IMG/VR virus record: IMGVR_UViG_3300033149_005718
Location: 1-34,050 of that record
From: a virus
Reading direction: 5' to 3' (one strand)
Length of the DNA: 34,050 nt
This document shows, piece after piece, positions 1,094 through 16,500 of this stretch; the first letter of the stretch is position 1, and each line of letters opens with the position of its first letter. Both the position numbers and the translations under genes were made by a program. Under the pieces are notes generated by a model. That model made no database searches. It was given only the letters and a program-made list of their open reading frames with translations, and was not told where the DNA came from.

Positions 1094-1656
1094 ATTTTTT
1101 TGAATTCTTTAACCATAAATTTACCAAACCCTCTGGCGTGCATTTCTCCACAACCATATCTTAATCCTGCCCCATTCAAGATTTCTCTCAGAGTCTCCTC
1201 TGGTATTCGGCTATCTAAAACAATCAATTTAAACTCTAAACTCCACTTATCAAATCTTGGTCTGGCGGTTGGTTTGGGAACTTTGGCTACACCTGTCCGC
1301 ACCCATTCTGGTCTTATATCAACTCTCCACTTTGCCTTAAAAGGAATTTCTTCTGGTTCAATAAAGACACTCGCTCTAATCAAGTCCTTATAGGTCTTCT
1401 TTCCCTCCCACTTGAAATCGGTAGCGGATTTAACAAGAGGAGACTTTATATGTCTCTCAGGAACGAATACACCTTTTTTATTCTTGTAAAGAGCCTTTTC
1501 AGCCTTCTTCTTTGGGTCAAAGTTCTTCACTCTGGTCTCCTGGGTTTTGTTGTGGACTTCATTGATGTCCAACTTGTTCTGGAAGTAGGGGGTTAAACCG
1601 ACTATCTTAACTTTGAAGGTTCGCACATCTTCAAAGTCTTTGGTGTTTAGTTTCAT
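1090..1656 (-). CDS. Conserved-looking phage protein with glycine-rich C-terminal loop
   Basis: 188 residues. The distinctive parts are RPEWVRTGVAKVPKPTARP followed by RFDKWSLEF, and a C-terminal glycine-rich segment (LRYGCGEMHARGFGKF, about residues 164-180) ending in a short beta-strand. The glycine-rich loop plus strand is reminiscent of RAMP/Cas7-type ferredoxin folds, but this is a visual resemblance only. Two AAAGGTC leader words lie upstream, the nearer one 25 nt before the ATG, and a TATAAT box (minus strand of 1712-1717) lies about 60 nt before the start. Translationally coupled to the next gene. Confidence 0.6.
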   Translation of the reverse strand: MKLNTKDFEDVRTFKVKIVGLTPYFQNKLDINEVHNKTQETRVKNFDPKKKAEKALYKNKKGVFVPERHIKSPLVKSATDFKWEGKKTYKDLIRASVFIEPEEIPFKAKWRVDIRPEWVRTGVAKVPKPTARPRFDKWSLEFKLIVLDSRIPEETLREILNGAGLRYGCGEMHARGFGKFMVKEFKKI

Positions 1657-1711
1657 AGGAATTTCTTTTAGTTAACTTGACGACCTTTTAAAATTTCCGA
1701 CCTTTAAAGGA

Positions 1712-1717
1712 TTATAT
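1712..1717 (-). promoter_or_regulatory. Possible -10 box for the 1656 gene
   Basis: The minus strand reads TATAAT here, followed 3 nt later by TTTAAAGGTC. A -35 candidate TTGAAA lies 19 nt upstream, longer than the optimal 16-18. The box overlaps the stop codon of the methyltransferase remnant, so the promoter could have been created or exposed by its decay. Confidence 0.35.
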
Positions 1718-1863
1718 CAAAGTTTCACATTGAGTTTTCAATCTTTGACGGGCTATTTCACAATATTCTTTTGATATTTCAATAGCAATGAAATTACGCT
1801 TAAGATCTTCAAAGCATCTCCTTGAATTATTTTATTTTTTATTTCTTCTATCTTTTGAACCAT
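1712..1863 (-). pseudogene. Remnant of a DNA methyltransferase (N6-adenine/N4-cytosine type)
   Basis: The minus strand from ATG 1863 reads MVQKIEEIKNKIIQGDALK, the usual start of N6_N4_Mtase enzymes (NKIIxGDxLxxL). Directly after it, in another frame, comes RNFIAIEISKEYCEIARQRL and a stop at 1712, the usual C-terminal end of the same family (G-RxFIGIEi--EYC-iA--RL). Everything between is missing: no SAM-binding FxGxG and no catalytic PPY motif. Only about 20 N-terminal and 30 C-terminal codons remain, joined out of frame. This is an internal deletion, and no enzyme can be made. The start codon lies in the centre of the TTTTGAACCATGGTTCAAAA palindrome. Confidence 0.8.
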
Positions 1864-1872
1864 GGTTCAAAA
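1853..1872. repeat. Perfect 20-bp palindrome containing TGAACCATGGTTCA
   Basis: TTTTGAACCATGGTTCAAAA is a perfect dyad. Its core recurs just upstream of the rightward promoter at 11120-11133, and its two halves form the arm ends of the hairpin at 5545-5602. It spans the stop of the gene at 1867-2493 and the start of the methyltransferase remnant. A dimeric regulator site is a reasonable guess. Confidence 0.5.
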
Positions 1873-2493
1873 ATCTAATAATAACAAGGCATCTTTTTTA
1901 ATGTCTTCCTCGCTAATCAACTTTGAATCAGTAATCAACTTTGGATTAAAGGGCTGGGTGATTAGATGAATGCCATGTTTCGTTGGATATTCAAGATAAG
2001 TTATGATATTAAGTTCTCTCAACTTATCCTTAATTAAATCTTTCTTTTCCTTTTCATCGATGTCTATTAAAAACTTGGTTTCTGCTCTTGAACTTGGATT
2101 CATCAAACAACTTATCCAGCGATTCCAAATATCAATATAGAAACTTTCTCTATCTTTCCCGGCATAGTAATCAGCCTCTAATTGTCGTTCTTTAAACTTT
2201 CTGATTGCCTTATTTAAATCCCGCTTATTTACACTGGAATAAATCCGCAAAGGAAAGTCTTTTAAAATCTTCTTTTGTATCAAGAATTCTTTGAGTATAT
2301 CAAGGAACTCCTCTTTATTTCTTGAAATCCTTTTGATGGCAACTCTATCTGGTTTATCAGATTTACCACCTTCTTTCCCTCTGAGGGTAAGCATTATGAA
2401 CCGAGTTCCATCCATAAAATCAGAAAAGGTTTTCTCTATTCGCTTTAACCTTTTGGTTACATCAGTTTCAAATAAAGGGATTTTGAAAAACAT
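1867..2493 (-). CDS. Possible primase-fold (AEP-like) phage protein
   Basis: 208 residues. Two motifs suggest the archaeo-eukaryotic primase superfamily: an acidic strand TKFLIDIDEKE (about residues 139-149), like the DxD metal site, and YPTKHGIHLITQPFN (about residues 171-185), like the following xxH motif. The segment NRWISCLMNPSSRAETKF precedes the acidic site. At 208 residues it would be a minimal catalytic core only. A sliding-clamp-like protein in the same block fits a replication role. The assignment rests on motif reading and is uncertain. There is no AAAGGTC leader; an SD-like GGAGGAGG sits in a hairpin upstream. Confidence 0.5.
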   Translation of the reverse strand: MFFKIPLFETDVTKRLKRIEKTFSDFMDGTRFIMLTLRGKEGGKSDKPDRVAIKRISRNKEEFLDILKEFLIQKKILKDFPLRIYSSVNKRDLNKAIRKFKERQLEADYYAGKDRESFYIDIWNRWISCLMNPSSRAETKFLIDIDEKEKKDLIKDKLRELNIITYLEYPTKHGIHLITQPFNPKLITDSKLISEEDIKKDALLLLDF

Positions 2494-2503
2494 TTAATTG
2501 GGT

Positions 2504-2535
2504 GGGGAGGAGACAAAAAGTTTTACCTCCTCCCC
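2504..2535 (-). terminator. Hairpin between the TM2 gene and the primase-like gene
   Basis: GGGGAGGAG pairs perfectly with CTCCTCCCC (9 bp, 14-nt loop). In the leftward transcript it follows the TM2 stop codon and precedes the next ATG by about 10 nt. It could terminate or attenuate transcription, or mask the purine-rich ribosome-binding-like sequence it contains. There is no clean U-run after it. Confidence 0.4.
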
Positions 2536-2540
2536 GCTGA

Positions 2541-2771
2541 TTAAACCTGTGGTCTGACAACCTTTCCTTCTTTATCTTTCATATAACCGCAGGCTACTAC
2601 AATAATATCTACCAGCCACCAGATTCCTAATCCTCCCCAAGTAATGAGTTTTAAGACTCCTGTTCCAATCTTGCCAAGATAAAACCTATCTATACCGAGA
2701 CTACCTAAAAAGATAGATAGCAACAGGAGTGCAAGCCAATTCTTCTCAGATGTTTCTATTTTCTTTCTCAT
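2541..2771 (-). CDS. TM2-domain membrane protein
   Basis: 76 residues with the classic TM2 layout: a hydrophobic helix, the turn GSLGIDRFYLGKIGTG, a second helix (ITWGGLGIWWLVDIIVV) and a charged tail. The DRFYLG motif between two transmembrane helices is diagnostic of the TM2 family (PF05154). The protein should sit in the host inner membrane; TM2 functions in bacteria and phages are not settled. The AAAGGTC word lies 23 nt before the ATG and overlaps the end of the upstream ATPase gene. Confidence 0.85.
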   Translation of the reverse strand: MRKKIETSEKNWLALLLLSIFLGSLGIDRFYLGKIGTGVLKLITWGGLGIWWLVDIIVVACGYMKDKEGKVVRPQV

Positions 2772-2799
2772 AATTGCTTTTTACTTATTTAAATGACCT

Positions 2800-3504
2800 T
2801 TATGGTTTCAACAACTTCAAAAGAAGTTGTTGCCAATGGTTTGGACTTAATTGATATAACCTGTAAGCCTGTGAAAGAATCCTCAAACTCAATCTTTCAG
2901 AAGTTTGACCAACCTTTTCCAAAAATTGAACAATCTTTTGTCTTTGTTTAGAGGTTAAACCATCAAAAGGTTCTTTGCTCTTTTTCTTTATGAGTTCAAT
3001 TATCTCCAAGTTTGTGAGTTCAAATTCGTAATAGAAACCTCTGTCTGCGACAGCATTTATGAGCGGGTTTGTTCTGTTTAACCTATTTAATAGCAGGATA
3101 ATTCTTCCTTGAAAGTAGAAAGATTTGTTTTCAATCTTTGAAGAAGTTGAAAACCAAGAAACCTTGCGTAGTCCGTTAGGCAACTGCCATAAAGCCCCTC
3201 GTAGAAGGGAGAGCATTTTGACATTGTTGAAAATATCCTCACAATCGTCCATTACCAAGATTTTGGGTTCGGACAACTCATTGACTTGTTCCAATTGCTT
3301 ATAGAACTCCAGAGGTGTTATGTATGAATTGATATAAAGATACTCTCTGCCTTCTCGTAAGCCCTCTTGTTCCAAAGCCTTGATGGTTGTTTCGGTTTTG
3401 CCGTGCCCGGCAGGACTAACCACTACTAATGAGTGGGAATATCCTTTCACCACTCCCTTTATGAGTTTCTTTAGGACTTCAAGTTTTTTGAGTTCCTTGC
3501 TCAT
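2800..3504 (-). CDS. AAA-type P-loop ATPase
   Basis: 234 residues. The Walker A motif is SPAGHGKTET (about residues 30-39) and Walker B is ILVMDDCED (about residues 82-90). A sensor-like strand RIILLLNRLNRTNP and a conserved arginine in NAVADRGF follow, then a C-terminal helical lid. The arrangement resembles small phage ATPases of the DnaC/IstB/AAA kind that load helicases or act with DNA, but the partner is not visible. No AAAGGTC leader precedes it; it starts 12 nt after the stop of the upstream gene, so it is co-transcribed with it. Confidence 0.7.
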   Translation of the reverse strand: MSKELKKLEVLKKLIKGVVKGYSHSLVVVSPAGHGKTETTIKALEQEGLREGREYLYINSYITPLEFYKQLEQVNELSEPKILVMDDCEDIFNNVKMLSLLRGALWQLPNGLRKVSWFSTSSKIENKSFYFQGRIILLLNRLNRTNPLINAVADRGFYYEFELTNLEIIELIKKKSKEPFDGLTSKQRQKIVQFLEKVGQTSERLSLRILSQAYRLYQLSPNHWQQLLLKLLKP

Positions 3505-3516
3505 ATTTGATAAAGG

Positions 3517-3738
3517 TTAGTGCCAACCCAACATCTTTTCAATCTTTTCGCAAACCTCAATCGGTAGTTCTTTTCCACACTCTGGGCAAAGCCAGTCAAG
3601 GTGTTCGCCATCTTTTGTATCAACCGCCTCACTATCGCCTGTCTTTAGGTCAAATTCATAATAAGAAAGGGTGTCTTGGACTTGGATGGCTTTATTTTGC
3701 TCTTTTTTACAGAATGGACAAATAAATACTTTCTTCAT
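3517..3738 (-). CDS. Small zinc-ribbon protein
   Basis: 73 residues with two CxxC knuckles, CPFC near the N-terminus (residues 7-10) and CPEC (about residues 51-54), spaced to bind one zinc ion. The loop between them is acidic and ends in GEHLDWLCPEC. This suits a nucleic-acid or protein-binding adaptor. A variant leader word (GACTTT on the plus strand, 27 nt before the ATG) overlaps the end of the upstream gene. The specific function is unknown. Confidence 0.65.
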   Translation of the reverse strand: MKKVFICPFCKKEQNKAIQVQDTLSYYEFDLKTGDSEAVDTKDGEHLDWLCPECGKELPIEVCEKIEKMLGWH

Positions 3739-3769
3739 AACTTGATTGTTAGTTAAGATTCATCCGACT

Positions 3770-3958
3770 TTAAAGAATGTAGTCTTCAAGGTATTCTCCA
3801 CAATCCTCACAAAAGACAACTGATTCATCAGCATTCTCTACTCGGTATTCTTCCAAATCAACATTTTCTTGTTCCATCAACTTGTCCCAACCTTGTTTTA
3901 TGAAATACCTTGTTTTGGTGGTGATAATAATGTTTTGGTGTTTGCATTTTTTGGACAT
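3770..3958 (-). CDS. Small CKH/CEDCG zinc-binding-like protein, paralogue of 6240-6425
   Basis: 62 residues. It begins MSKKCKHQNI and ends near FCEDCGEYL, so a Cys/His pair at the N-terminus and a CxxC at the C-terminus could form one zinc site. The protein at 6240-6425 has the same plan (MKCKHKNISIT ... FCEDCGKWL) and nearly the same length, so the two are paralogues. Short spacing (3 nt) to the upstream gene indicates one operon. Function unknown. Confidence 0.65.
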   Translation of the reverse strand: MSKKCKHQNIIITTKTRYFIKQGWDKLMEQENVDLEEYRVENADESVVFCEDCGEYLEDYIL

Positions 3959-3961
3959 AGT

Positions 3962-4183
3962 TTATTTGGATTTAACTTGTTTTTCTTTTAGAAGTTCAAC
4001 AGCATAAGCAAGGCTGTTCCAAAAATCAAAACCTTCCATCATTTTTTCGGCTAAATAGTTCATATCTTCATCAGATAATTTCAAAACTTCTTCTTCCGAC
4101 ATCAGACCCTCATCAATTATATCTCTTCTACAAACAGAGGTGATAGGAAATGGTTTGAATAGTTTTTTAAATTTATCTTCCAT
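3962..4183 (-). CDS. Unknown acidic helical protein
   Basis: 73 residues, predicted helical, with the segment LMSEEEVLKLSDEDMNYLAEKMMEG read as two amphipathic helices. No cysteine cluster and no membrane helix. The AAAGGTC word lies 21 nt before the ATG. Likely a small host-takeover or regulatory protein by context, but no family is recognised. Confidence 0.6.
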   Translation of the reverse strand: MEDKFKKLFKPFPITSVCRRDIIDEGLMSEEEVLKLSDEDMNYLAEKMMEGFDFWNSLAYAVELLKEKQVKSK

Positions 4184-4232
4184 ATTTGATTGAATTAAGT
4201 TGACGACCTTTTTAAATGTTTTCGTTTTAAGG

Positions 4233-4376
4233 TTATCTTTCTTCTACCTTAAATTCCCAATCAGCAATGCTATCACATATAAATTCTGCCAACCTTTCTT
4301 TTGCTTCATCTTCGTTTTCTGCTTCAATCTCCATACCTTCCTTTATTTCTACTTCTACATAGTATTTTTTAGCCAT
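4233..4376 (-). CDS. 47-residue MAKKYY-family protein
   Basis: A short gene: ATG at 4376, stop TAA at 4233. It begins MAKKYYVEVEI and continues with an acidic helix (EAENEDEAKERLAEF) and a final strand ending KVEER. The beta-alpha-beta look and the MAKKYY start are shared with the equal-length gene immediately upstream (4418-4561). The leader carries AAGGGTC, a one-base variant of the common word, 26 nt before the start. Function unknown. Confidence 0.6.
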   Translation of the reverse strand: MAKKYYVEVEIKEGMEIEAENEDEAKERLAEFICDSIADWEFKVEER

Positions 4377-4417
4377 AGGTTTTATTTAATTAAATTTATT
4401 TTGACCCTTAAAGAGTT

Positions 4418-4561
4418 TTATTCTTCTTCGGTTTCTTCAACTACTTGATAATTGTTTTCAGGATACATTACCTCAAAGTTGTCTCTCGTGGCTTCTGCTT
4501 CTTCTTTGTTATCAAATTCCGCTATTGTTTTAGTTTCTAAAAGGTAGTATTTTTTAGCCAT
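4418..4561 (-). CDS. 47-residue MAKKYY-family protein
   Basis: ATG at 4561, stop TAA at 4418. The protein starts MAKKYYLLETKTIAEF, then a helix with KEEAEATRDNF, and ends in a run of glutamates. It has the same length and start as the neighbour at 4233-4376, so the pair arose by tandem duplication. AAAGGTC sits 24 nt before the ATG. A looser relative may be the 51-residue protein at 8566-8721 (TYYLVY ... KEEAIEAE). Confidence 0.6.
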   Translation of the reverse strand: MAKKYYLLETKTIAEFDNKEEAEATRDNFEVMYPENNYQVVEETEEE

Positions 4562-4565
4562 AAGT

Positions 4566-4763
4566 TCATTTGGCTGAATTTATTTGACCTTTATCAAAGA
4601 TGCTGGTTTGTTTCAAATCAATGTTTTTCCTGATTGAAAATTCTCTTTTTAGTCTTGGGCAAATTACAACCTTAAATCCAAGATAATGTAGTTGCTTTCC
4701 TGAACATTTGAAGGGACATTTCAGACACTTCCGAGTTTGGACTAAGGCTTTATTTGTTGCCAT
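4566..4763 (-). CDS. Small Cys-cluster protein
   Basis: 65 residues. The N-terminal half carries CLKCPFKC (residues 13-20) and a further Cys in VVICPRLKREF (residue 35), a four-cysteine arrangement that could bind zinc or an iron-sulfur cluster. The C-terminal half is basic and ends in a linker-like tail. The start overlaps the end of the upstream gene by 14 nt, so the two are translated together. Function unknown. Confidence 0.6.
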   Translation of the reverse strand: MATNKALVQTRKCLKCPFKCSGKQLHYLGFKVVICPRLKREFSIRKNIDLKQTSIFDKGQINSAK

Positions 4764-4950
4764 AAAGATTATTTAACAGGTTTAACAATTCTGTTGCAAT
4801 TGCTTCCGTTTCATCGCCGTCTAAGGGATCATACTTCTTGCGATTTATCTCTTTCACGATAGCCTCTAAACCCTTTAGAGCCAAATGGCTTGTAAAAAGA
4901 GTTTGGGCTGGATGTATCTTTTTAGGGAATTCACGAATAAAGGTCTTCAT
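4750..4950 (-). CDS. Unknown 66-residue helical protein
   Basis: 66 residues with predicted helices (HLALKGLEAIVKEI; DGDETEAIATELLNLLNNL). No motif that I can name. It starts one base after the stop of the upstream 59-residue gene and overlaps the downstream Cys-cluster gene, forming a tight three-gene set behind the AAAGGTC leader at 5156-5162. Confidence 0.6.
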   Translation of the reverse strand: MKTFIREFPKKIHPAQTLFTSHLALKGLEAIVKEINRKKYDPLDGDETEAIATELLNLLNNLYGNK

Positions 4951-4951
4951 A

Positions 4952-5131
4952 TTATTTATTCTTTTTATAGTTTTTCAAAAACTCTTCTCGCCATATCCTT
5001 TCTGCCAACTCTTTTGCCTCATAAGGAGTATTGGGATTGCACCTTGAGGCGAACTCAAGTTCTTCTTTGCTTGCTTTTGACAAATCTCCGTTGTATTTTT
5101 CCAAAAGGCGGTAGAAAGTAAACCAACCCAT
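4952..5131 (-). CDS. Unknown 59-residue protein
   Basis: ATG at 5131, stop TAA at 4952. The protein reads MGWFTFYRLLEKYNGDLSKA and continues with a helix containing EAKELAERIWREEFLKNY. The start is supported by AAAGGTC 24 nt upstream and by the one-base gap to the next gene. An overlapping longer frame on the same strand lacks these signals and was not chosen. Function unknown. Confidence 0.6.
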   Translation of the reverse strand: MGWFTFYRLLEKYNGDLSKASKEELEFASRCNPNTPYEAKELAERIWREEFLKNYKKNK

Positions 5132-5176
5132 AGTTTAAATTTCGTTTGAGGTATTGACCTTTTATGGCTTTTCAAA

Positions 5177-5505
5177 GACAATAGCATAGGGCAAGAGACC
5201 ACCAAAGAGAATCCCAGTATGCTATTGTCAAGGCACTCCCCCTTTTAGGTCTGGAGCGAGACCATCAGCGTTTACCCAGCTGACACGGGTTGCTCGTCTT
5301 TCCGAGCCGTTCATGGGTTTCCTTCTGATTGCTTTTAAAAGCGGTCAAAGAGGTGTCAGATAGGCTTGGCTGTCATTCAGGTTGAAAAGCAATTAAGGGC
5401 GGGTGGTCTCTTGAATTCAGGAATTATGCAATCATATTTAGACATTATTCAACCAATCGGTAAACACCCTATTGCTTTTCAAAATTCGTTCGGGTTAAGC
5501 CTATC
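5177..5505 (-). ncRNA. Large pseudoknotted structured element, candidate noncoding RNA
   Basis: No gene fits here, but perfect complementary segments abound: 5177-5188 with 5218-5229 (12 bp), 5192-5203 with 5402-5413 (12 bp, the first segment lying in the loop of the previous helix), 5382-5393 with 5471-5482 (12 bp), and 5359-5367 with 5497-5505 (9 bp). Local hairpins sit at 5248-5263 and 5292-5307. Several helices cross, so the fold is a pseudoknot chain. The region is more GC-rich than its neighbours and lies between the clamp-like gene and the 59-residue gene in the leftward transcript. The strand is inferred from context; no known RNA family is recognised. Confidence 0.5.
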
Positions 5506-5544
5506 AGCCCTCATTTAATAAGACCTAAGCAATCATTCAGTCCC

Positions 5545-5602
5545 CCATCTTGGTATTGAACCATCTTTTCTTTTTTGAAACATGGTTCAATACCAAAGAT
5601 GG
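5545..5602 (-). terminator. Long hairpin after the clamp-like gene
   Basis: Arms 5545-5564 and 5582-5602 are complementary over 20 bp with a single-base bulge; the 17-nt loop is A-rich on the minus strand. It begins 9 nt after the clamp-like gene's stop. The loop-proximal halves read TTGAACCAT and ATGGTTCAA, the two halves of the palindrome found at 1853 and 11120, here split by the loop. It could be a terminator, an RNA-processing site or a diverged regulator site. Confidence 0.5.
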
Positions 5603-5611
5603 AAGACCAAA

Positions 5612-6211
5612 TTATACTTCTTTCAAGGGCATCAAAAGGGCTTCTGCTTTTTGACCTGTCTCATTTCTCTCTCCAATAAACCTGATTGGGTTTTCTGGTT
5701 CTACTGGAATTTCAAGAATAACCTCATTTACTTTGCTATCTACAAAATCATTGAAAAAATCAACTATCCGCTTTAAGAATTTTTTATCTACGCTTATCCT
5801 TATATGCCTTCCTTTTCTCGTTAAGATTTCCCCATAACCGGGATATTCACCCTCAATTGTTCTTGATTTCATTCTGAGAAAGACATCTAAATCAGTAATA
5901 CCAAACTCAACCGAGCCTTGATTTTGGTTAAGAACCACGAAGTTTTCAAGTATAGGAAGGCTTGCTTTGGAAGGAAGGTTTTTCAGTATTTTTTCAGCCT
6001 CTTCTTTTGGCAGAATAAAGGGGTTAAAATTCTTCATTGCTTTCCCATCTTGAACTGGGAATTCACTCTCGGAAGGTGTTTGAACTCTTATCAAGGAGAA
6101 ACCATCGGTGGCAACACTTTCTTTGTTTGTCATATAAATACCAGCAATTTCTGGTCTTGAAGATTTATTGGTAGTAAAATTCTTTATTTTAAGATTAAAT
6201 TTGTTAAACAT
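5612..6211 (-). CDS. Sliding-clamp-like (DnaN-related) protein, short form
   Basis: 199 residues against about 370 for bacterial DnaN, so roughly two of the three clamp domains. Recognisable features are the N-terminal strand-turn GIYMTNKESVATDGFSL, the inter-domain motif IEGEYPGYGEIL (typical iEGxYPdy) and a C-terminal NPIRFIG ... ALLMPL like the PL--xx--MP ending of clamps. It would tether the replicative polymerase to DNA; a shortened clamp would need a different oligomer number to close a ring. AAAGGTC lies 23 nt before the ATG. No polymerase gene is visible in the window. Confidence 0.65.
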   Translation of the reverse strand: MFNKFNLKIKNFTTNKSSRPEIAGIYMTNKESVATDGFSLIRVQTPSESEFPVQDGKAMKNFNPFILPKEEAEKILKNLPSKASLPILENFVVLNQNQGSVEFGITDLDVFLRMKSRTIEGEYPGYGEILTRKGRHIRISVDKKFLKRIVDFFNDFVDSKVNEVILEIPVEPENPIRFIGERNETGQKAEALLMPLKEV

Positions 6212-6239
6212 ACTCCATTTAAGATTAAAATCCCGACCT

Positions 6240-6425
6240 TTAGTTTAAATCATTTTCGTCTTTTAGCCATTTGCCACAATCTTCACAAAATATATCAACC
6301 ATTCTTTCTTCAACAAAATGTTTGCCTAAATCAAGATTTGGATTGTTCCATGCTTTTTCAAAACCTTCAGGAAGGTGGTAATAGGACTTATAGGTAATTG
6401 AAATGTTTTTATGCTTGCACTTCAT
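6240..6425 (-). CDS. Small CKH/CEDCG zinc-binding-like protein, paralogue of 3770-3958
   Basis: 61 residues beginning MKCKHKNISITYKSYYHL and ending FCEDCGKWLKDENDLN. The Cys-Lys-His start and the CxxC end match the paralogue at 3770-3958. It sits 3 nt after the stop of the 165-residue gene upstream, so the two are one transcription unit. Its own stop is followed almost at once by the AAAGGTC leader of the clamp-like gene. Function unknown. Confidence 0.65.
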   Translation of the reverse strand: MKCKHKNISITYKSYYHLPEGFEKAWNNPNLDLGKHFVEERMVDIFCEDCGKWLKDENDLN

Positions 6426-6428
6426 AAT

Positions 6429-6926
6429 TTAATAATGAATATCAGCAGGCACTACATACACATTCAGACCTTTATACTTATCAGAATCCCATTTGTTTAA
6501 GACGCCTTTAAGATGATGAGGATCTCCTATGCCTTCGCCATCATTATCATAAAGAAAGATTGCACTTCCTTTGGTTTGACCTACCAGATAACATCTGAAC
6601 CTAAATAAATCAGAGGAGAAATAAGGAGTATTCCAAATCTGATAATTCGTCTTCTTTTTCAAAACCTTTCTTATCTCGTTAAGATTGTAATACAACTCTT
6701 TCTTTGTGAATTTTAAACCATCTTCTATCAGTTTTTTCCCAATTTTAGAGTCTGCTCTTGCTATCACTGGTAATTTTCCCCATCTTTTTGTTGCAAAATC
6801 TTCATCAAAAAGGCTATAATAATCAAATCTATGGATTTCACAAAAATCATCAAGAATTCCTACTGCCTTCTCTAAAGCCTCTTCTTTGTTTTTTCCATAA
6901 ACTATAATTCTAATTAGCTGATGCAT
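6429..6926 (-). CDS. Unknown 165-residue protein
   Basis: The N-terminus is a beta-alpha unit (LIRIIVYGKNKEEALEKAV), followed by an aromatic-rich segment (HRFDYYSLFDED) and a conserved-looking C-terminal part (IWNTPYFSSDLFRF ... GSAIFLYDNDGEGIGDPHH). The DNDGEG segment could bind a metal. No named family is recognised. AAAGGTC lies 27 nt before the ATG and overlaps the last codons of the upstream gene. Confidence 0.6.
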   Translation of the reverse strand: MHQLIRIIVYGKNKEEALEKAVGILDDFCEIHRFDYYSLFDEDFATKRWGKLPVIARADSKIGKKLIEDGLKFTKKELYYNLNEIRKVLKKKTNYQIWNTPYFSSDLFRFRCYLVGQTKGSAIFLYDNDGEGIGDPHHLKGVLNKWDSDKYKGLNVYVVPADIHY

Positions 6927-6947
6927 AGATTTAAGAAGAAGTTAAAG

Positions 6948-7160
6948 TTAAATGACCTTTGTAGGAGGAATTCTCCCTCTTTTGAGATACCATTCATCCT
7001 CATAGGGTTCTTGTTCATCCCTTGCTGTTGCGATCTTCTCTCTCAATTTGCGAGCCTTATTTTGTCTGGTTTTCTTTTCACTACTCCAAATGTAACACCC
7101 GAGAGCATTTATCAACATTTGGACTTCATTTTTAGAGAAGGTAATTGTGATTTGTTTCAT
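6948..7160 (-). CDS. Unknown basic 70-residue protein
   Basis: The start ATG at 7160 is preferred over an upstream TTG because AAAGGTC lies 24 nt before it. The protein begins MKQITITFSKNEVQMLINAL, then a very basic helix (EKKTRQNKARKLREKIA) and an acidic-aromatic turn (YEDEWYLKRGRIPP). The basic helix suggests nucleic-acid contact. Its last codons (ACA AAG GTC ATT) contain the AAAGGTC word that serves the next gene. Confidence 0.6.
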   Translation of the reverse strand: MKQITITFSKNEVQMLINALGCYIWSSEKKTRQNKARKLREKIATARDEQEPYEDEWYLKRGRIPPTKVI

Positions 7161-7212
7161 ATTTGGAGTTATCTGAGATAGCAAGACCTTTAAAGAATCT
7201 AAATAGTATATC

Positions 7213-7356
7213 TTAAGATTGAACTTCTACAACCACACTTTCAGGAATTCTCCAGAAAATATGTTTATACCCGTTATTCTCCTTAGTAGCCACAATTACT
7301 TCTCCTTTCTTAAATGAACCATAATTGGTAATAAATTTGATAAGGACACTTTTCAT
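7213..7356 (-). CDS. Unknown 47-residue protein
   Basis: ATG at 7356, stop TAA at 7213. The protein reads MKSVLIKFITNYGSFKKGEV and continues as short beta-strands ending in VVVEVQS, suggesting a small beta-barrel. The AAAGGTC word is further away than usual (43 nt, at 7400-7406); a variant (GAACCTT on the plus strand) lies 7 nt from the start. Same length as the two MAKKYY proteins but not clearly related. Confidence 0.55.
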   Translation of the reverse strand: MKSVLIKFITNYGSFKKGEVIVATKENNGYKHIFWRIPESVVVEVQS

Positions 7357-7472
7357 AGATTTTGAACCTTATTTTCAATTGAACCAATTGTTAAAAATTG
7401 ACCTTTTGGAGAAAAATTTATTTGGCTTTTCTTATTGAAAAAATAATTAAATATGTTATTATTTTTTATACC

Positions 7473-7505
7473 ACCAGTTTCTCAATTGACCCCCGAGAAA
7501 CTGGT
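7473..7505. terminator. Perfect 11-bp hairpin
   Basis: ACCAGTTTCTC at 7473-7483 pairs without mismatch with GAGAAACTGGT at 7495-7505; the loop is 11 nt and contains a run of five C (five G on the minus strand). It lies between the large stem structure at 7524-7737 and the gene at 7213. No U-run follows on either strand, so its role in termination is uncertain. Confidence 0.4.
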
Positions 7506-7523
7506 AAAGAGAGCATAACTCTT

Positions 7524-7737
7524 GGTTAATTCTCTTTTTGTTGGGAGTTTCACCACAACTTTGCCTCACAATCAGTTAACCCCGAATGGAGAAGGTTTGG
7601 GCTGAGCAAGATAAGAGATAGAGCCACCATCATTTATTTTTTAAAAGAGCATTCTTTGGGCTTCTCTTATCTTGCTTTTAAATAGCCACTGGCTTCTCCA
7701 CCGTTAAACTGATTGTTGGCTAAAAAGAGAATTAACC
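7524..7737 (-). ncRNA. Rod-like structured RNA candidate (6S-like shape)
   Basis: Five nested complementary pairs fold the 214-nt stretch into one long interrupted stem: 7524-7539 with 7722-7737 (16 bp, perfect), 7569-7580 with 7703-7715 (one bulge), 7587-7594 with 7693-7700 (8 bp), 7605-7618 with 7663-7676 (14 bp, perfect), and a small inner pair AGCC/GGGCT. No coding frame explains it. The overall shape, a long stem with internal bubbles, resembles 6S RNA or a large imperfect inverted repeat. Strand assumed from the surrounding genes. Confidence 0.5.
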
Positions 7738-7757
7738 TTGCCTTCACTTATTCAATT

Positions 7758-7868
7758 TTAAATGTCCTTTAATAATTCAATCATTGCAACCAATTCGTGG
7801 GCTATATAAATCATTACTACAACTGCCAAACTTAGAAGAAATAAAGATATTTTCATTATTGTTGTCAT
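7758..7868 (-). CDS. Small single-pass membrane protein
   Basis: ATG at 7868 (alternative ATG at 7856), stop TAA at 7758; 36 residues. After MTTIMK comes a hydrophobic helix, ISLFLLSLAVVVMIYIA, long enough to cross the membrane, then a short acidic tail (IELLKDI). It could be a small inhibitor or a holin-like protein, but neither is shown. There is no AAAGGTC leader; upstream is a purine/G-rich tract. Confidence 0.5.
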   Translation of the reverse strand: MTTIMKISLFLLSLAVVVMIYIAHELVAMIELLKDI

Positions 7869-7950
7869 ATAGCAATTAAGGGATTAAAGGATTGAGTTGG
7901 TATAAACAGGATAGGTTTGGATTAATTGGTAGGGGATTGGTAGAAAGGTA

Positions 7951-7973
7951 GGGAGGGTAGAAGGGTAGAAGGG
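7951..7973 (+). repeat. G-quadruplex-type tract
   Basis: Four GGG runs separated by 1, 5 and 5 bases on the plus strand, with the unit TAGAAGGG repeated in tandem. This satisfies the usual G3+N1-7 quadruplex pattern. In the leftward transcript it is C-rich and lies between the stop of the gene at 8001 and the small membrane protein. The preceding 60 bases are also G-rich and T/A-broken (GGTAGGGGATTGG). Confidence 0.5.
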
Positions 7974-8000
7974 ATAAAAAGAGAATAAACCCGCTTCCAT

Positions 8001-8357
8001 TCATTTCTCAAAAACCGCCACTTCTTCTTCTAATTTTTTCATTTCATCTTCATAAAACTTTAATAAATCTCTCTCTTCTTCTTCATCAAACCTTTCTAAT
8101 TCCTTTCCAAACATCATTTTTGCTGTTCTTTCAATCTCTTCTTTTGTTGCCTCTCTCAAAATTGACTTTGTTAAGATTGCGTGATAATCGTATGCTCTCT
8201 TATACATAAATCTTTTGAGTTTCTTGTCATAGTAAATTTCATATTCTCCGTGAAATCCTTGACAATGATTATCGCAAACATCATAGATTCTGCCCTTCAG
8301 TCTAAAATTTCTGTTTTCTTTCATCAATTTTTTAATTTGTTCAAGTTTTTTATTCAT
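8001..8357 (-). CDS. Unknown 118-residue protein behind a strong promoter
   Basis: The N-terminus is helical and basic, then RNFRLKGRIYDVCDNHCQGF carries a C-x3-H-C group that could bind a metal, followed by a beta segment and a long acidic coiled tail (EEEERDLLKFYEDEMKKLEEE). AAAGGTC lies 18 nt before the ATG, and a near-perfect sigma-70 promoter starts about 35 nt upstream, so this gene heads its own transcript. Function unknown. Confidence 0.6.
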   Translation of the reverse strand: MNKKLEQIKKLMKENRNFRLKGRIYDVCDNHCQGFHGEYEIYYDKKLKRFMYKRAYDYHAILTKSILREATKEEIERTAKMMFGKELERFDEEEERDLLKFYEDEMKKLEEEVAVFEK

Positions 8358-8375
8358 ATTATTTTGCTTATTGAT

Positions 8376-8382
8376 GACCTTT
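8376..8382 (-). promoter_or_regulatory. AAAGGTC leader word (representative of a repeated set)
   Basis: The minus strand reads AAAGGTC 18 nt before the ATG at 8357. The same word precedes other leftward genes at 1682, 2795, 4205, 4586, 5156, 6235, 6954, 7185, 8771, 9130, 9869, 10365 and 10593 (left edges), plus AAGGGTC at 4403, always 18-27 nt before a start codon. Here it lies about 10-16 nt downstream of the predicted transcription start, so it is a leader element rather than a -10 or -35 box, and it is too far from ATG for a Shine-Dalgarno role. Confidence 0.6.
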
Positions 8383-8398
8383 TTACCCTCTATTATCT

Positions 8399-8426
8399 AT
8401 TATACTCATCTATACCCCTTTGTCAA
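8399..8426 (-). promoter_or_regulatory. Sigma-70 promoter, consensus -35 and -10
   Basis: On the minus strand TTGACA (8426-8421) and TATAAT (8404-8399) are both perfect, separated by 16 bp. Transcription should begin near 8392 and give a leader of about 35 nt before the ATG at 8357. A perfect DnaA-type box lies 10 bp upstream of the -35. Confidence 0.8.
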
Positions 8427-8436
8427 TACCTTTGCC

Positions 8437-8445
8437 TGTGGATAA
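8437..8445 (-). promoter_or_regulatory. Perfect DnaA-type box TTATCCACA
   Basis: The minus strand reads AGTTATCCACAG around this site; the core matches the bacterial DnaA box exactly. The same 12 bases occur once more, on the opposite strand, at 10664-10675. Its place directly upstream of a promoter suggests either host DnaA control of transcription or an origin component. Confidence 0.45.
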
Positions 8446-8502
8446 CTTGAATTATTGATATTTCAAGTAAAATAACTTAATTTTGTTTGAAACTTTGTCA
8501 AT

Positions 8503-8569
8503 TTAACTCTCCTTATCTCTATCCTCAACCCGCCGTCATAGGTTAAGGATAGAGTATAAAAAGAGTTAA
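8503..8569 (-). terminator. Compound hairpin at the end of the 8566-8721 gene
   Basis: Three stacked helices: 8503-8510 with 8562-8569 (8 bp), 8517-8525 with 8546-8554 (9 bp), and AACC/GGTT around a 10-nt loop. It includes the stop codon of the gene at 8566 and precedes the promoter at 8399-8426, so it probably ends one transcript before the next begins. There is no long U-run. Confidence 0.5.
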
Positions 8570-8721
8570 TTCTTAAATTCTAATTTGCCTTCTTTTTCGG
8601 CTTCAATTGCCTCTTCCTTTGTTTTGAACAATTGACTTGTTTGGTCGCCCTTTTGCCAGTAATATCCGTCTTCGTCTGGACTATACACCAAGTAATAAGT
8701 GATTTTTTCAGTAATTATCAT
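8566..8721 (-). CDS. Unknown 51-residue protein
   Basis: ATG at 8721, stop TAA at 8566. The protein reads MIITEKITYYLVYSPDEDGY and then YWQKGDQTSQLFKTKEEAIEA, ending LEFKN: strand-strand-helix, a layout loosely like the 47-residue MAKKYY proteins. The AAAGGTC word sits 49 nt upstream of this start but exactly 24 nt upstream of another ATG at 8746 that opens a 12-codon frame (MKAVGFLKDDNY) ending just inside this gene. A short leader peptide or an inserted hairpin (AAAGCC/GGCTTT) may explain the gap. Confidence 0.55.
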   Translation of the reverse strand: MIITEKITYYLVYSPDEDGYYWQKGDQTSQLFKTKEEAIEAEKEGKLEFKN

Positions 8722-8777
8722 CTTTCAAAAAGCCGACGGCTTTCATGGTTTTTTAGTTTAATTGAAGTTTGACCTTT

Positions 8778-8827
8778 ATGAGGGCTTAAGCCCTCATTAT
8801 TGCCCGCCACCAGTAATGACGGGCAAT
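8778..8827. repeat. Two adjacent hairpins in an early-gene leader
   Basis: A perfect 20-bp palindrome (ATGAGGGCTTAAGCCCTCAT, 8778-8797) abuts a second hairpin with arms ATTGCCCG and CGGGCAAT (8799-8806 and 8820-8827). They lie between the stop of the 82-residue gene and the AAAGGTC leader of the next gene. Hairpins placed between a stop codon and a leader recur at 9423-9502 and 9880-9935, like small inserted palindromic elements. Confidence 0.5.
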
Positions 8828-8860
8828 GTGAAGGTTTAAAACCCGGCTATTTTAAAAAGA

Positions 8861-9109
8861 TTACATCTCAACCATTTCTGTCAAAAGTTTGTTCATTTCA
8901 GGACTATTACCACTCCAAAGGACAATCCACAACTCTCCTTTAAACTCTTTAAATTTTTCTTCTAAAACCTCTTCAATTGCCATTTCTATTTTTTGTTTAG
9001 CCTTGTTCTCCATTACCACTTCGTCGTCATCGTACCAATCACCGTAATTATTTCTGGCTTTCTGTTCTATTTCTTGGGCGTATTCTTTTAAAAATTCTTT
9101 TGGTGTCAT
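8861..9109 (-). CDS. Unknown acidic helical protein
   Basis: 82 residues: an amphipathic helix (PKEFLKEYAQEIEQKA), an acidic-aromatic turn (NYGDWYDDDEVVMENKA), then a helix and a short strand with ELWIVLWSGN. Net acidic, with no Cys cluster. AAAGGTC lies 20 nt before the ATG. A small acidic host-takeover protein is plausible by context only. Confidence 0.6.
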   Translation of the reverse strand: MTPKEFLKEYAQEIEQKARNNYGDWYDDDEVVMENKAKQKIEMAIEEVLEEKFKEFKGELWIVLWSGNSPEMNKLLTEMVEM

Positions 9110-9166
9110 AATTTTTTATTATTATTAACGACCTTTTTCTACTTTTGTAGATATAGCCATTCATCT

Positions 9167-9400
9167 TTAGATTTTTCTTTTGAGAAGTTTTTTCAGTTTT
9201 TCTTCTATATATTCTCTTACTTCTTCTTCTTGTTTCTCTGTTAATAAATTTTCCAATCCGCCATTTTCTCTTTCTTCAGCATACATTCCGTCTAAAATAT
9301 CACAAGACAAATCAAATAAATCAGTGTCTTTATTGAGTGCGTCTTCTATTGCGTGTGTATCAAAGTATTTATCAATTTGTTTTTTTAATTTTTTGTTCAT
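9167..9400 (-). CDS. Unknown 77-residue helical protein
   Basis: The ATG at 9400 is preferred over upstream alternatives because it gives a normal start (MNKKLKKQIDKYFDTHAIED). The protein is helical with an acidic centre (DLFDLSCDILDGMYAEERE) and a Lys-rich C-terminus. Its leader contains a folded palindromic element and AAAGGAC, a variant of the usual leader word, 27 nt upstream. Function unknown. Confidence 0.55.
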   Translation of the reverse strand: MNKKLKKQIDKYFDTHAIEDALNKDTDLFDLSCDILDGMYAEERENGGLENLLTEKQEEEVREYIEEKLKKLLKRKI

Positions 9401-9422
9401 AATTTTTAATAACTCAAACAAT

Positions 9423-9502
9423 TTTAGTCCTTTCAGGACTAAAGCCCCCGCCTTGAGCTACCCCCCCGGCAAGGGATAGCCCAAAAGCCGACGCTTTAGT
9501 CC
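9423..9502. repeat. Folded 80-nt element with mutually exclusive helices
   Basis: GGACTAAA (9436-9443) can pair with TTTAGTCC (9423-9430, 5-nt loop) or, extended to GGACTAAAGC, with GCTTTAGTCC at 9493-9502. Between them lies a GC-rich core with a run of seven C. The element overlaps the stop codon of the upstream gene and fills the leader of the next. It could be a REP/MITE-like insertion or an attenuator switch. Confidence 0.5.
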
Positions 9503-9843
9503 AACCAAGCCGACCCATCACCGCCTAAATACACGGATTCAACCCGTTCTGCCTCTTCCAATGTCAGGGGTAATTCCTGATAAAAGCCCCAATCAGCCCA
9601 ATAATAAAACCCGCCTATCAACTCCTTATCTTTGTTATACTCAAGGATAAACCCATCAGCACCACCGCCCCATGATAACTGGATCGTGATTCTATAATTC
9701 TTTTCAATGCTTAATGGCTGTCTTATCTCCAAATCTTCCAAATCTCGCCCTTTTTGTATTTCTTCCTCTGCTTTTTTTAACCCTTTCAATTCTTCCCTCA
9801 ATTTTTTGATTGCTTTTTCTTTGGAATCTTCTTTTGTTTGCAT
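9496..9843 (-). CDS. Unknown 115-residue protein
   Basis: The N-terminal third is a charged helix (KAIKKLREELKGLKKAEEE), followed by a beta-rich part with aromatics (YRITIQLSWGGGADGFILEY; GGFYYWADWGFYQELPL) and an acidic, Trp-containing end (GGDGSAWLD). The beta-rich C-terminal part looks like a small sheet domain. AAAGGTC lies 25 nt before the ATG. The stop codon lies inside the repeat element at 9423-9502. No family recognised. Confidence 0.6.
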   Translation of the reverse strand: MQTKEDSKEKAIKKLREELKGLKKAEEEIQKGRDLEDLEIRQPLSIEKNYRITIQLSWGGGADGFILEYNKDKELIGGFYYWADWGFYQELPLTLEEAERVESVYLGGDGSAWLD

Positions 9844-9879
9844 GTTTTTAATTATTTAACTAATCTGCGACCTTTGAAG

Positions 9880-9935
9880 GATTAAGCCTCTTTTACTACC
9901 TGCCAAAAATGGCAGGTAGGCAAAGATGCTTAATC
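9880..9935 (-). terminator. Compound hairpin after the 133-residue gene
   Basis: The inner stem CTACCTGCC (9896-9904) pairs perfectly with GGCAGGTAG (9911-9919) across a 6-nt A-rich loop; the outer arms GATTAAGC (9880-9887) and GCTTAATC (9928-9935) pair over 8 bp. It sits just after the stop of the gene at 9936 and before the AAAGGTC leader of the next gene. Confidence 0.5.
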
Positions 9936-10337
9936 TCAAAAATGAATACTTGTTAAAAAATCAATCAAATCAGATAATTCAGAAAAACCCTTTAATTCTT
10001 GGCTGATCCAATATCTGAACCCATAAAAAGGGAAGCGGTTTTCTTGTCCTGCCACTGCCCAGCCCGTTTCATCCTTGACTGCAAGTGTCCAATCACCAGC
10101 ACTGCTTCCTGATTCTATTAACTCAACATCACTAAACCCCAGCAATTGAAAAACCTTTATATAACTACCAGCCCCAGCACCCGGCACTACTATAATTCCG
10201 CCCTCTCTTATTAACTTGCTTGCTTTCTTAATTGTTATCTTTTGCCCCTCATCATTCCAAAACTCCAATCTGCCCGCTTCTCTGATTCCTGTGGCTTCTT
10301 CTGCTACTTGTTTTTTTATTGTTTCATTTAAAGTCAT
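9936..10337 (-). CDS. Unknown 133-residue protein
   Basis: The protein has a helical N-terminus, then ASKLIREGGIIVVPGAGAGS, a strand followed by a Gly/Ala-rich turn. An aromatic-rich part follows (ENRFPFYGFRYWISQEL), then a C-terminal helix. The Gly-rich turn is not a standard P-loop. AAAGGTC lies 27 nt before the ATG. No family recognised. Confidence 0.6.
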   Translation of the reverse strand: MTLNETIKKQVAEEATGIREAGRLEFWNDEGQKITIKKASKLIREGGIIVVPGAGAGSYIKVFQLLGFSDVELIESGSSAGDWTLAVKDETGWAVAGQENRFPFYGFRYWISQELKGFSELSDLIDFLTSIHF

Positions 10338-10373
10338 TCTTTTTTTTGATTTTAACTTTTGAAAGACCTTTTT

Positions 10374-10571
10374 TTATTTTTTTATTTCAAACCCATATCG
10401 CCTGCACTGTTCAACCTGCCAACCTGTAAAGTAATACCCCGGATATTGCTTGCTATCCTGTATCCAGCGTTCACATTCCGCCCGTTCCTGCCTTTCTATT
10501 CCTTCCAGTGCAACCCAACCAACCAAGACAAGAAACAAGAGAAAAAGTAGAACCTGAAAAATGTTTTTCAT
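10374..10571 (-). CDS. Small membrane-anchored protein, first gene of the leftward block
   Basis: 65 residues: a short basic start (MKNIFQ), one hydrophobic helix (VLLFLLFLVLVGWVALEGI) and a polar, Cys/Tyr-containing C-terminal part (CERWIQDSKQYPGYYF ... CRRYGFEIKK). The topology suits an N-terminal anchor or uncleaved signal with the tail outside, and the two cysteines could form a disulfide. AAAGGTC lies 21 nt before the ATG and a possible promoter lies further upstream. Possible roles include superinfection exclusion or lysis, but nothing in the sequence decides. Confidence 0.6.
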   Translation of the reverse strand: MKNIFQVLLFLLFLVLVGWVALEGIERQERAECERWIQDSKQYPGYYFTGWQVEQCRRYGFEIKK

Positions 10572-13456: not shown

Positions 13457-13572
13457 TGATCTTTTATGGCTACAAGATTTGTCCACGATGTGGCCAAAAG
13501 AATGATGATTCAAGAGCCTACTGCTGGTATTGTGGTTGGCCACTCGATGTAGTTTTGCGTCCAGATGACTAA
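13456..13572 (+). CDS. 38-residue zinc ribbon between portal and the giant enzyme gene
   Basis: A GTG start overlapping the portal stop by one base, and a TAA stop at 13570-13572 that overlaps the next ATG by 8 nt. The protein contains YKICPRCGQKNDD followed by YCWYCGWPLD, two CxxC knuckles 10 residues apart, a complete minimal zinc ribbon. The two-sided overlaps and intact motif argue that it is real despite its size and GTG start. It may be an adaptor for the neighbouring proteins. Confidence 0.65.
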   Translation: MIFYGYKICPRCGQKNDDSRAYCWYCGWPLDVVLRPDD

Positions 13573-16500
13573 TATGTTAGTGCCTTCTGATATACAAGAG
13601 TTATTAAAGCCAGGAAGGGTTGTACCCCTGCCAGCAAGGATTTTAGTTCCTCCACATGGACGCCTTATTTGGGAAGGAAAAAAGAAGGCGATTTTGAGTT
13701 CTCGTCTAACTGAAAAATATATTGGAATTCCAGTATATTTTGTTGAGGGAGATAAGGCCTTGGGAATCATTGAGATTAAAGAACCCAAAAAGATTAGTCT
13801 GGAAGAAGCAAAGAAATTGCGAAACAAACACATGGTTAGCGATGAAGAAATAAAAAGATGGTGGAAGGGAAAGAAGATTCTATATTATTACCCAATTGAG
13901 TTAATTTCAAAATTTGATCCGCCCAAAGAAATCATTCGTCCTCAGGGAGCACAAGTTTGGCTACAGACAGTTACATTTAAAAGTTTGGAAATACCGAGTC
14001 CATCAAAGATGACAGATGAGGAGTTGTTAGAGACTCATAAAAGATTGCATGAATTGTGGCATGAAGCTGACGATTCAAAAGAAGACATTATAAACTATCA
14101 TATTCTTGTCAAAGAAGAACTTAGAAAAAGAAAGCTTGGGCATAAAGATATTGATGAATTGGATGAAAAGTCAAGACTATTTCAAGAAAAGTTCAGTAAA
14201 TCGGGTTATAAAATAACGTTCTTTGGCACAAAAGGATTGGTTGAAGAAGAGGGACCAGGTCATCGTTTTCATACAGCAGTTTTATATGAGTTTAAAGGAA
14301 AGAGATTGTTGATTGATTATGGAGAAAAAAATCCAGGGAATTTAAAAGAAATCAAGCCAGACTATATACTTCTTTCACATAGTCACCCCGACCATATCGG
14401 AGGTTTAATGGACATGCCTGTTATTGTTTCTAAAGACACAGCGAAAGAAATTCCTGAACTCTATAAAGATTTCAACATAGATATTAGAAGTCAATTCGAA
14501 TCATATAAACCATTCAGGCTTGGTCCATTTAAGATAACTCCTATTCCAGTTTTACATAGCATTAGATCAAAAATGCATGTGTTTTTGATTGAAATGGGAG
14601 ATAAGAAGGTATTACAAGCAACTGATATTCTTGGATGGCACAAAGGAGATCGAGAGAAATTTGTGAAAGATCTTGATTTAGCCATTATTGATGGATCTTC
14701 TCTAGAAAGAACACTGGCAAGAAAAAAGGGAAAGGCTGGAGAGCCTTATGGTCATGCATCAATATTTCAGCAGTTGAAGAACTGGTATTTACCAGAGAAC
14801 ACAAAGAGAGTGATAATTACTCATCTTGGAAAAGAACCATTGGCTCTTGGAGACGAAGAACTCCTTAGAAGAGTGAAAGAAATAACCAAATTACCCGTTT
14901 ATATAGCACAAGACAGTGCTGTTATTAACCTTTCAGAGGATTTAGCCCCAATTTATACATCTGGGAAAGTAGAAGGAAGGAGAATCTATCTTAAAGAAGT
15001 TTTGCCATATTTTAAAAATTTCATTATCCAAAGGCCCTTGGCTTACCTTACTGGAGGTTTGGTGAACCAAGGTTCAACAAGAGGTGATATTGATATTTTA
15101 TTACCAGATTGGTTGAGTTTTGACATGCGAAGAATTATAGAATTTAGAATTGCAAGAAGTTTGCCTTGGTATCTCAGAAGGCGACTACACTTTGTATATG
15201 ATAGATTCTCAACTCCATTCACAAACGCTGTTCCACTCTTTAACCTTGTAATGGTAAGAAGCAAAGACGAAATTTTAAGACTTTCTGATATTGAAAAACA
15301 ACTAAGAGAAAAACCAAGAATTGCTGAAGCAGTGAAAGACGCAGAAGCTTCTGCTAGAGAAGACAAAATAAAATTGTTTAGATATTTTCTTCCACTTAAA
15401 CCGACCAGAGGATATTATCCAGGAAAAAGACAGACAATAGATTTGTTTATCGAAGTAATGGAGGCAAGTGGAACCTACCCATTCTACTCAACAAAGAAGT
15501 ACGACGGATTTAATTGTATTCTGATGAAAAAAGGAGATAAAATCAAAGCCTATTCCGAAGATGGGGAAGTTATAACTGATAGACTCCCAACTTTAGTCGA
15601 GGAAATAAAGAGATTAACTAAAGAAGATTGTGTGTTAATGGCTGAATTAGAATGGTGGGAAGATAACGATCATAAACCAAGAGAAGTAATTGCTGGTTAT
15701 ATTCATCGAAAAGAGACACCAGATGATTCTCATGTTGTTGCTAATGTTTATGATATGCCCTATTTCAAGGTTGATATTCATAATGAGCCTTTTGAAAAAA
15801 GATTGAAATTACTCGAATCCTTACCCTTCAAACAAAGAACATGGAAAATTCCAAATATCAAGATAAAATTGAATTTTGCTCCATATTTGCTTTCTAAAAA
15901 TAGAGAAGAATTAAGGAAGCATACCGAATTTTTAAGAAAGCTTCCCGGTTCCGAAGGCAATGTGGCTAAGACCAGAGATTTCAAGTACAACCTCAAAGGA
16001 ATTCGTTCTGGAATGGTAAAGTTTCATAACTCAACGGTTGTCTATGGCAAAGTCCTGAAAATAAAAGAAACAAAAGTAAAAGGAGTTTACAACTATTATT
16101 TCGGGATCGAACCTGGAAAATATAAAGGGAAAGTAGAAGAGCTTGAGAATGTTTTCTATCATAGAATCGGTAGAACATTCTCTACAAGTTTGAAGGCAAA
16201 AGTTGGAGATGTTTTGGAAATTGAGGGAGAAACACTCAATGTAGAACATAACCTTAAAGACGATACTTGGAATCTAAGTTTATGGGCTCCGAGGGTAATG
16301 AGAAAAGTAGATAGAAAAGCAGATACAATTAAGGAGGCTATCGAAAGAGCCAGAAAGAATTATTGTCTTCAAGAAAAAGAGATTACCGAAGATGGAGAAA
16401 TTATTTATCTCTCGGATATTGAAAAACTTAATTTGAAGCAATTTAGAGCGACTGGTATGGATGAGGATTTGAAGCATCCTAAAGAAAGAAAGAAGGAGTT

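Follow-up and report, generated by a model that had tools for sequence, protein, structure and literature searches.

The gene-free stretch that follows a beta-sliding-clamp-like gene in a 34,050-base IMG/VR virus record, analysed here over its full length and called the window below, appears to encode a real and previously unlisted RNA, whose shape is kept in five other phages and whose sequence hardly is. The position of the element, its architecture and the conservation of its pseudoknot by compensatory change are all observed across the six phages, and they argue, at the level of sequence comparison, for a knotted RNA fold that is conserved and linked to the clamp gene. The window carries a Mu-like portal and major head protein. 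Its clamp-like gene matches PHROG 947, 'DNA polymerase processivity factor' (E 2.5e-9), and the weak profile matches of this gene to solved structures are all to beta clamps.

The initial annotation of this DNA had read positions 5177-5505 as a multi-helix pseudoknotted RNA, with three perfect 12-bp helices and one 9-bp helix, several of which cross, and local hairpins. The sequence contains all four helices where the annotation implied them (Table 1). The helix 5192-5203/5402-5413 crosses each of the other three because both of its strands sit inside loops of other helices: the first within the loop of hairpin P1, the second within that of the helices 5382-5393/5471-5482 and 5359-5367/5497-5505. 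The proposed extent lies inside the element but is too short, as the element spans about 450 bases (~5158-5606) and includes the additional hairpin H1. The G+C content of the region is 0.41-0.49, against ~0.32 in its surroundings. The stretch had also been called gene-free, and rightly so: no ORF of at least 60 aa fills 5206-5581, and no ORF of at least 25 aa is common to the homologous gaps, for which reason we rejected a protein-coding gap.

Table 1. Features of the clamp-linked RNA region in the window, and pseudoknot strands in six phages
Feature	Position	Strand	Description
Beta-sliding-clamp-like gene	5612..6211	-	directly upstream of the RNA
Whole structured RNA region	5134..5611	-	clamp stop codon to start codon of the next gene; gene-free; same gap in five other phages
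H1, long hairpin	5541..5606	-	core arms 5550-5568/5578-5596; directly after the clamp stop codon
Long arm	5326..5535	-	helices 5326-5334/5527-5535, 5359-5367/5497-5505 (9 bp) and 5382-5393/5471-5482 (12 bp, 100% complementary); internal-loop motifs, minus strand: GCTGA (5504-5508), CTGACA (5354-5359)
PKa, pseudoknot strand	5402..5413	-	CAAGAGACCACC; lies in the arm's apical region; pairs with 5192-5203 over 12 bp (100% complementary)
Middle hairpin	5292..5307	-	GCTCG-GAAAGA-CGAGC; conserved word GGAAAGAC in the loop (5296-5303); ATGA(A)C lies ahead of the hairpin
P1, 3' hairpin	5177..5229	-	stem 5177-5188/5218-5229 (12 bp, 100% complementary); loop motif TTTGGTGGTCT (5196-5206), single occurrence in the window
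PKb, pseudoknot strand	5192..5203	-	GGTGGTCTCTTG; loop of P1
Next gene	4952..5133	-	small protein without assigned function, starting 44 nt after P1; from sequence reading and upstream listing
PKa/PKb, window			CAAGAGACCACC/GGTGGTCTCTTG
PKa/PKb, L009			GAAGACCGCCCA/TGGGCGGTCTTC
PKa/PKb, L033			AGAAACTAC/GTAGTTTCT
PKa/PKb, L041			AGAAACTACC/GGTAGTTTCT
PKa/PKb, L043			AAAACTACC/GGTAGTTTT
PKa/PKb, L045			AAGCCACC/GGTGGCTT

Homologous loci were collected stepwise: one phage (L003/L009) through the major head protein, L033 through a neighbouring ATPase gene, and the distinct records L041 (= L042), L043 and L045 with an alignment of three clamp proteins. The clamps of the five other distinct IMG/VR phages are 40-48% identical to that of the window, and a gap of 355-490 nt follows the clamp gene in 6/6 phages. 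No gap is present behind four distant clamp genes (~25% identity, G+C 0.52-0.54), where the next gene begins immediately, and L011-L013, found via a neighbouring gene, have neither a detectable clamp gene nor an obvious RNA. Scans of a genome collection with two neighbouring proteins gave no matches, and blastn of the window and L009 gaps against isolate phages gave nothing useful. A core DNA pattern of these two gaps was discarded after it returned, in viral contigs, 15 chance matches resembling coding sequence, plus the relative already known.

The architecture is the same in all six gaps. The RNA adjoins the clamp stop codon, and its parts succeed each other on the clamp-sense strand as H1, long arm, middle hairpin and P1. 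The long arm, with counterparts in L009, L033, L041, L043 and L045, has an internal loop whose two sides bear GCUGR and CUGAY (ACUGA in L045), and carries PKa in its apical region. The middle hairpin comes after AUGAC and has its loop word in the window, L043 and L045. The P1 loop bears PKb, with the consensus UUUGGURGUYUYU, which forms a pseudoknot of 8-12 bp with the apical region of the arm. An early version of the L033 pseudoknot (hairpin AGCTCGTCTGTTTCAAGCT) was dropped, the true 3' hairpin being L033 5173-5225. The L043 gap (5586-5985) holds two copies of the PKa sequence AAAACTACC, one in the H1 loop and one in the long arm; each is complementary to PKb, so that alternative pairing is possible.

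AT-rich intergenic DNA yields some long inverted repeats by chance. We scored the topology as min(n,m), for a perfect stem of n bp with m bp of perfect pairing between its loop and upstream sequence, against 2000 dinucleotide shuffles of each gap. The window reaches 12, compared with at most 9 in its 2000 shuffles and at most 9 elsewhere in the window; the number of shuffles attaining the observed score is 0 for the window, 1 for L009, 16 for L033, 16 for L041, 14 for L043 and 51 for L045. When the six sequences are aligned by MAFFT without structural guidance and passed to RNAalifold, the pseudoknot emerges as a consensus helix of nine pairs, all of them paired in 6/6 phages and five showing compensatory changes, and H1 as a consensus helix with partial covariation. 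Taken as a whole, the consensus scores above each of 500 shuffles in both pairing and covariation, and also above all slid controls. With the pseudoknot and P1 registered by hand, 15/19 pairs change on both sides, 98% of the cells pair, and compensatory change affects 9/9 counted stem pairs of P1, in a count that is biased toward structure (a bulge was removed from the L033 P1 stem) and whose cells are not independent events, L033, L041, L043 and L045 being close sequence kin. A covariance model was left out because it cannot hold a pseudoknot and because loop lengths vary between members. The helices are thus conserved among homologues by compensatory change, as expected of a conserved structured RNA. 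The initial annotation had named the lack of such change in homologues as a possible refutation; the check on six phages found the changes, in a central pseudoknot that pairs in 6/6 at the same location, and its reading as a multi-helix pseudoknotted RNA is upheld. Chance inverted repeats keep practically no probability: shuffling never reproduced the topology of the window, and conservation at the same place in 6/6 phages already refutes them.

Sequence alone does not settle the membership of the window in this family. Leave-one-out sequence profiles recover the gap in 5/6 phages (E 3e-4 to 7e-13), and the gap that the profile of the other five misses is that of the window; its pairwise local scores are marginal, even with L009, its best partner (6/500 shuffles as good). 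Both facts count against the explanation that we favour below. The P1-loop word TTTGGTRGYYT and the word GGAAAGAC after ATGA, both known from the other phages, each have a single occurrence in the 34-kb window with the two strands counted together; both occurrences fall in the gap, correctly oriented and ordered. Both motifs were picked with the window in view and offer support, not a blind test. In our judgement, the window's RNA is safe as a family member because motifs, synteny and pseudoknot topology concur.

No strand was given in the initial annotation; comparison with the homologues assigns the RNA to the minus strand. Folding energies of the gaps alone clearly favour the clamp-sense strand in L009, L033, L041 and L043; the two strands are about equal in L045, and the clamp-sense strand is slightly worse in the window. 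One pseudoknot pair of L033 is G-U on the sense strand and would be C-A on the opposite one. The energies in these four relatives and the L033 pair make the window's minus strand the most likely source of the RNA. The indecision in the window and L045 weighs against our favoured explanation and fits an element that acts as double- or single-stranded DNA, for example as a replication origin or a set of protein-binding palindromes. Replication genes do adjoin the region, and some words of the window, ATTGCTTTTCAAA among them, are repeated in both orientations. However, these repeated words are not conserved in the other phages, where the pairing is kept, four relatives have a clear strand preference, and binding-site palindromes are not expected to show long-range pseudoknot pairing. 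We regard a DNA-level element as quite improbable.

No Rfam family accounts for the element, in agreement with the initial annotation, which had not recognised it. Rfam at the gathering threshold gives no match in the window or in the five homologous loci. A permissive search of four gaps returns matches far below gathering scores, mostly microRNA hairpins, with ROOL, GOLLD and OLE, families characterised by RNA-only homo-oligomers, absent, and the Rfam covariance models of RNase P RNA, self-splicing introns, HEARO and other families are unmatched. ARAGORN finds no tRNA or tmRNA in the window, and tmRNA, whose hallmarks are a tRNA-like domain and a tag reading frame, was rejected on this result and the lack of an Rfam match. 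ROOL (Rumen-Originating, Ornate, Large) is a large pseudoknotted RNA of phages and prophages, and GOLLD a large structured phage RNA with pseudoknots, both of unknown function (PMC12286853). The suggested resemblance to them is apt insofar as the window RNA is also large, structured, pseudoknotted and phage-borne, but it does not extend to membership in either family or in any other Rfam family. The clamp-linked RNA is shorter than the solved ROOL example (355-490 nt vs 659 nt) and roughly half as long as many GOLLD RNAs; the tie to a clamp gene sets it apart from ROOL; and the location near tRNA islands, frequent but not obligatory for ROOL and GOLLD, does not apply to a window devoid of tRNA. 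The guide RNAs of TnpB and IscB (omega RNA, HEARO) are also structured RNAs of mobile elements, and a TnpB-like gene lies ~460 nt away in L009. Yet, other genes intervene there, the ORF lists of the window and of the surroundings of the RNA in the other four phages contain no such gene, and Rfam gives no match, so that a TnpB guide RNA was rejected. By reading, a TnpB-like gene (4239-5363, minus strand) and an HNH-type gene (2585-3379, minus strand) are both insertions in the early region of L009. A literature search of partial coverage found no description of a clamp-linked RNA, and the element is best filed as a new family among large structured phage RNAs.

The upstream clamp is constant among the six phages, whereas the immediate downstream gene is not: it encodes a zinc ribbon in L043, a small membrane protein in L033, L041 and L045, and two different unassigned proteins in the window and L009. 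H1 follows the clamp stop codon too closely to leave room for a promoter, and the minus strand carries no terminator-like site within the RNA or after it; the clamp transcript thus probably includes the RNA, and a promoter inside the clamp gene could also be its source. A word AAAGGTC(A/G) stands ~20-28 nt before the start codon of many minus-strand genes in window 1656-10571, and likewise in L009, L033, L041 and L045; it precedes the clamp gene in several phages, and the gene after the RNA in the window only. It may be a promoter or start signal.

A rival explanation is that the RNA is a cis-acting regulatory element of the clamp operon. P1 and the pseudoknot could control whether the downstream cistron is translated, or the RNA could stabilise or feedback-control the clamp mRNA, e.g., by binding the clamp protein. 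Its operon position is fixed against the clamp stop codon. In 5/6 phages, 7-18 nt separate the end of P1 from the following ATG, a proximity that also fits a cis role and counts against our favoured explanation. Pseudoknotted leaders and riboswitches likewise stand shortly before a start codon. But a leader of 355-490 nt would be large, the Rfam searches matched no riboswitch or leader family, and in the window 44 nt and a AAAAGGTCA element separate P1 from the next gene. A riboswitch or gene-specific 5' leader is disfavoured by the lack of a constant downstream gene, the window, L009, L043 and the L033/L041/L045 group all differing. We keep a cis role as a possible, if less than probable, reading because P1 lies so near the next start codon.

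On balance, we favour, with a slight lean, a noncoding structured RNA of the clamp operon, transcribed from the minus strand and acting in trans as a folded body. A body-like RNA is preferred to a leader because the downstream gene differs between phages and the upstream clamp does not. Such an RNA would begin with H1 at the clamp stop codon, continue with the long arm and its GCUGR/CUGAY internal loop and then with the middle hairpin domain, and the P1 loop would dock onto the apical region of the arm by 8-12 base pairs to give a compact knotted fold. We infer that it is cotranscribed with the clamp gene, probably released by processing, and that it may work in trans during infection as a scaffold or protein-binding RNA, not as a switch for the next gene. 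A more specific version, which we hold to be unlikely, is a new class of large phage RNA whose loop-to-arm pseudoknot, at most 12 bp long, closes the fold, and which would serve phage DNA replication in trans alongside the upstream-encoded sliding clamp, whether as a scaffold, a primer precursor or a ribonucleoprotein partner.

Few large structured phage RNAs are known. The constant clamp-gene neighbour, a size fit for probing and cryo-EM, and the natural compensatory variants of the pseudoknot make the role of such RNAs in infection directly testable. An RNA family can escape notice in IMG/VR, as this one did because its sequence changes quickly and its fold does not.

The window holds a second gene-free, strongly structured element at 7524-7737, bounded by a 16-bp perfect inverted repeat (7524-7539/7722-7737) with nested perfect helices of 10 and 14 bp. 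One arm is repeated at 7976-7991 (15/16), the folding z is ~-5.3 on either strand, and similar inverted repeats were not seen at the matching place in L009. It may be a MITE-like element or another RNA. Elsewhere, by reading of the translation, a 1885-aa ORF (13565-19222, plus strand) seems to combine a metallo-beta-lactamase-fold domain with a DNA-ligase-like part and an intein-like interruption. The major head protein of the window (22231-23169) is 94% identical to that of L003/G001, whereas the two phages' clamps share only 48% identity, a contrast that reflects mosaicism.
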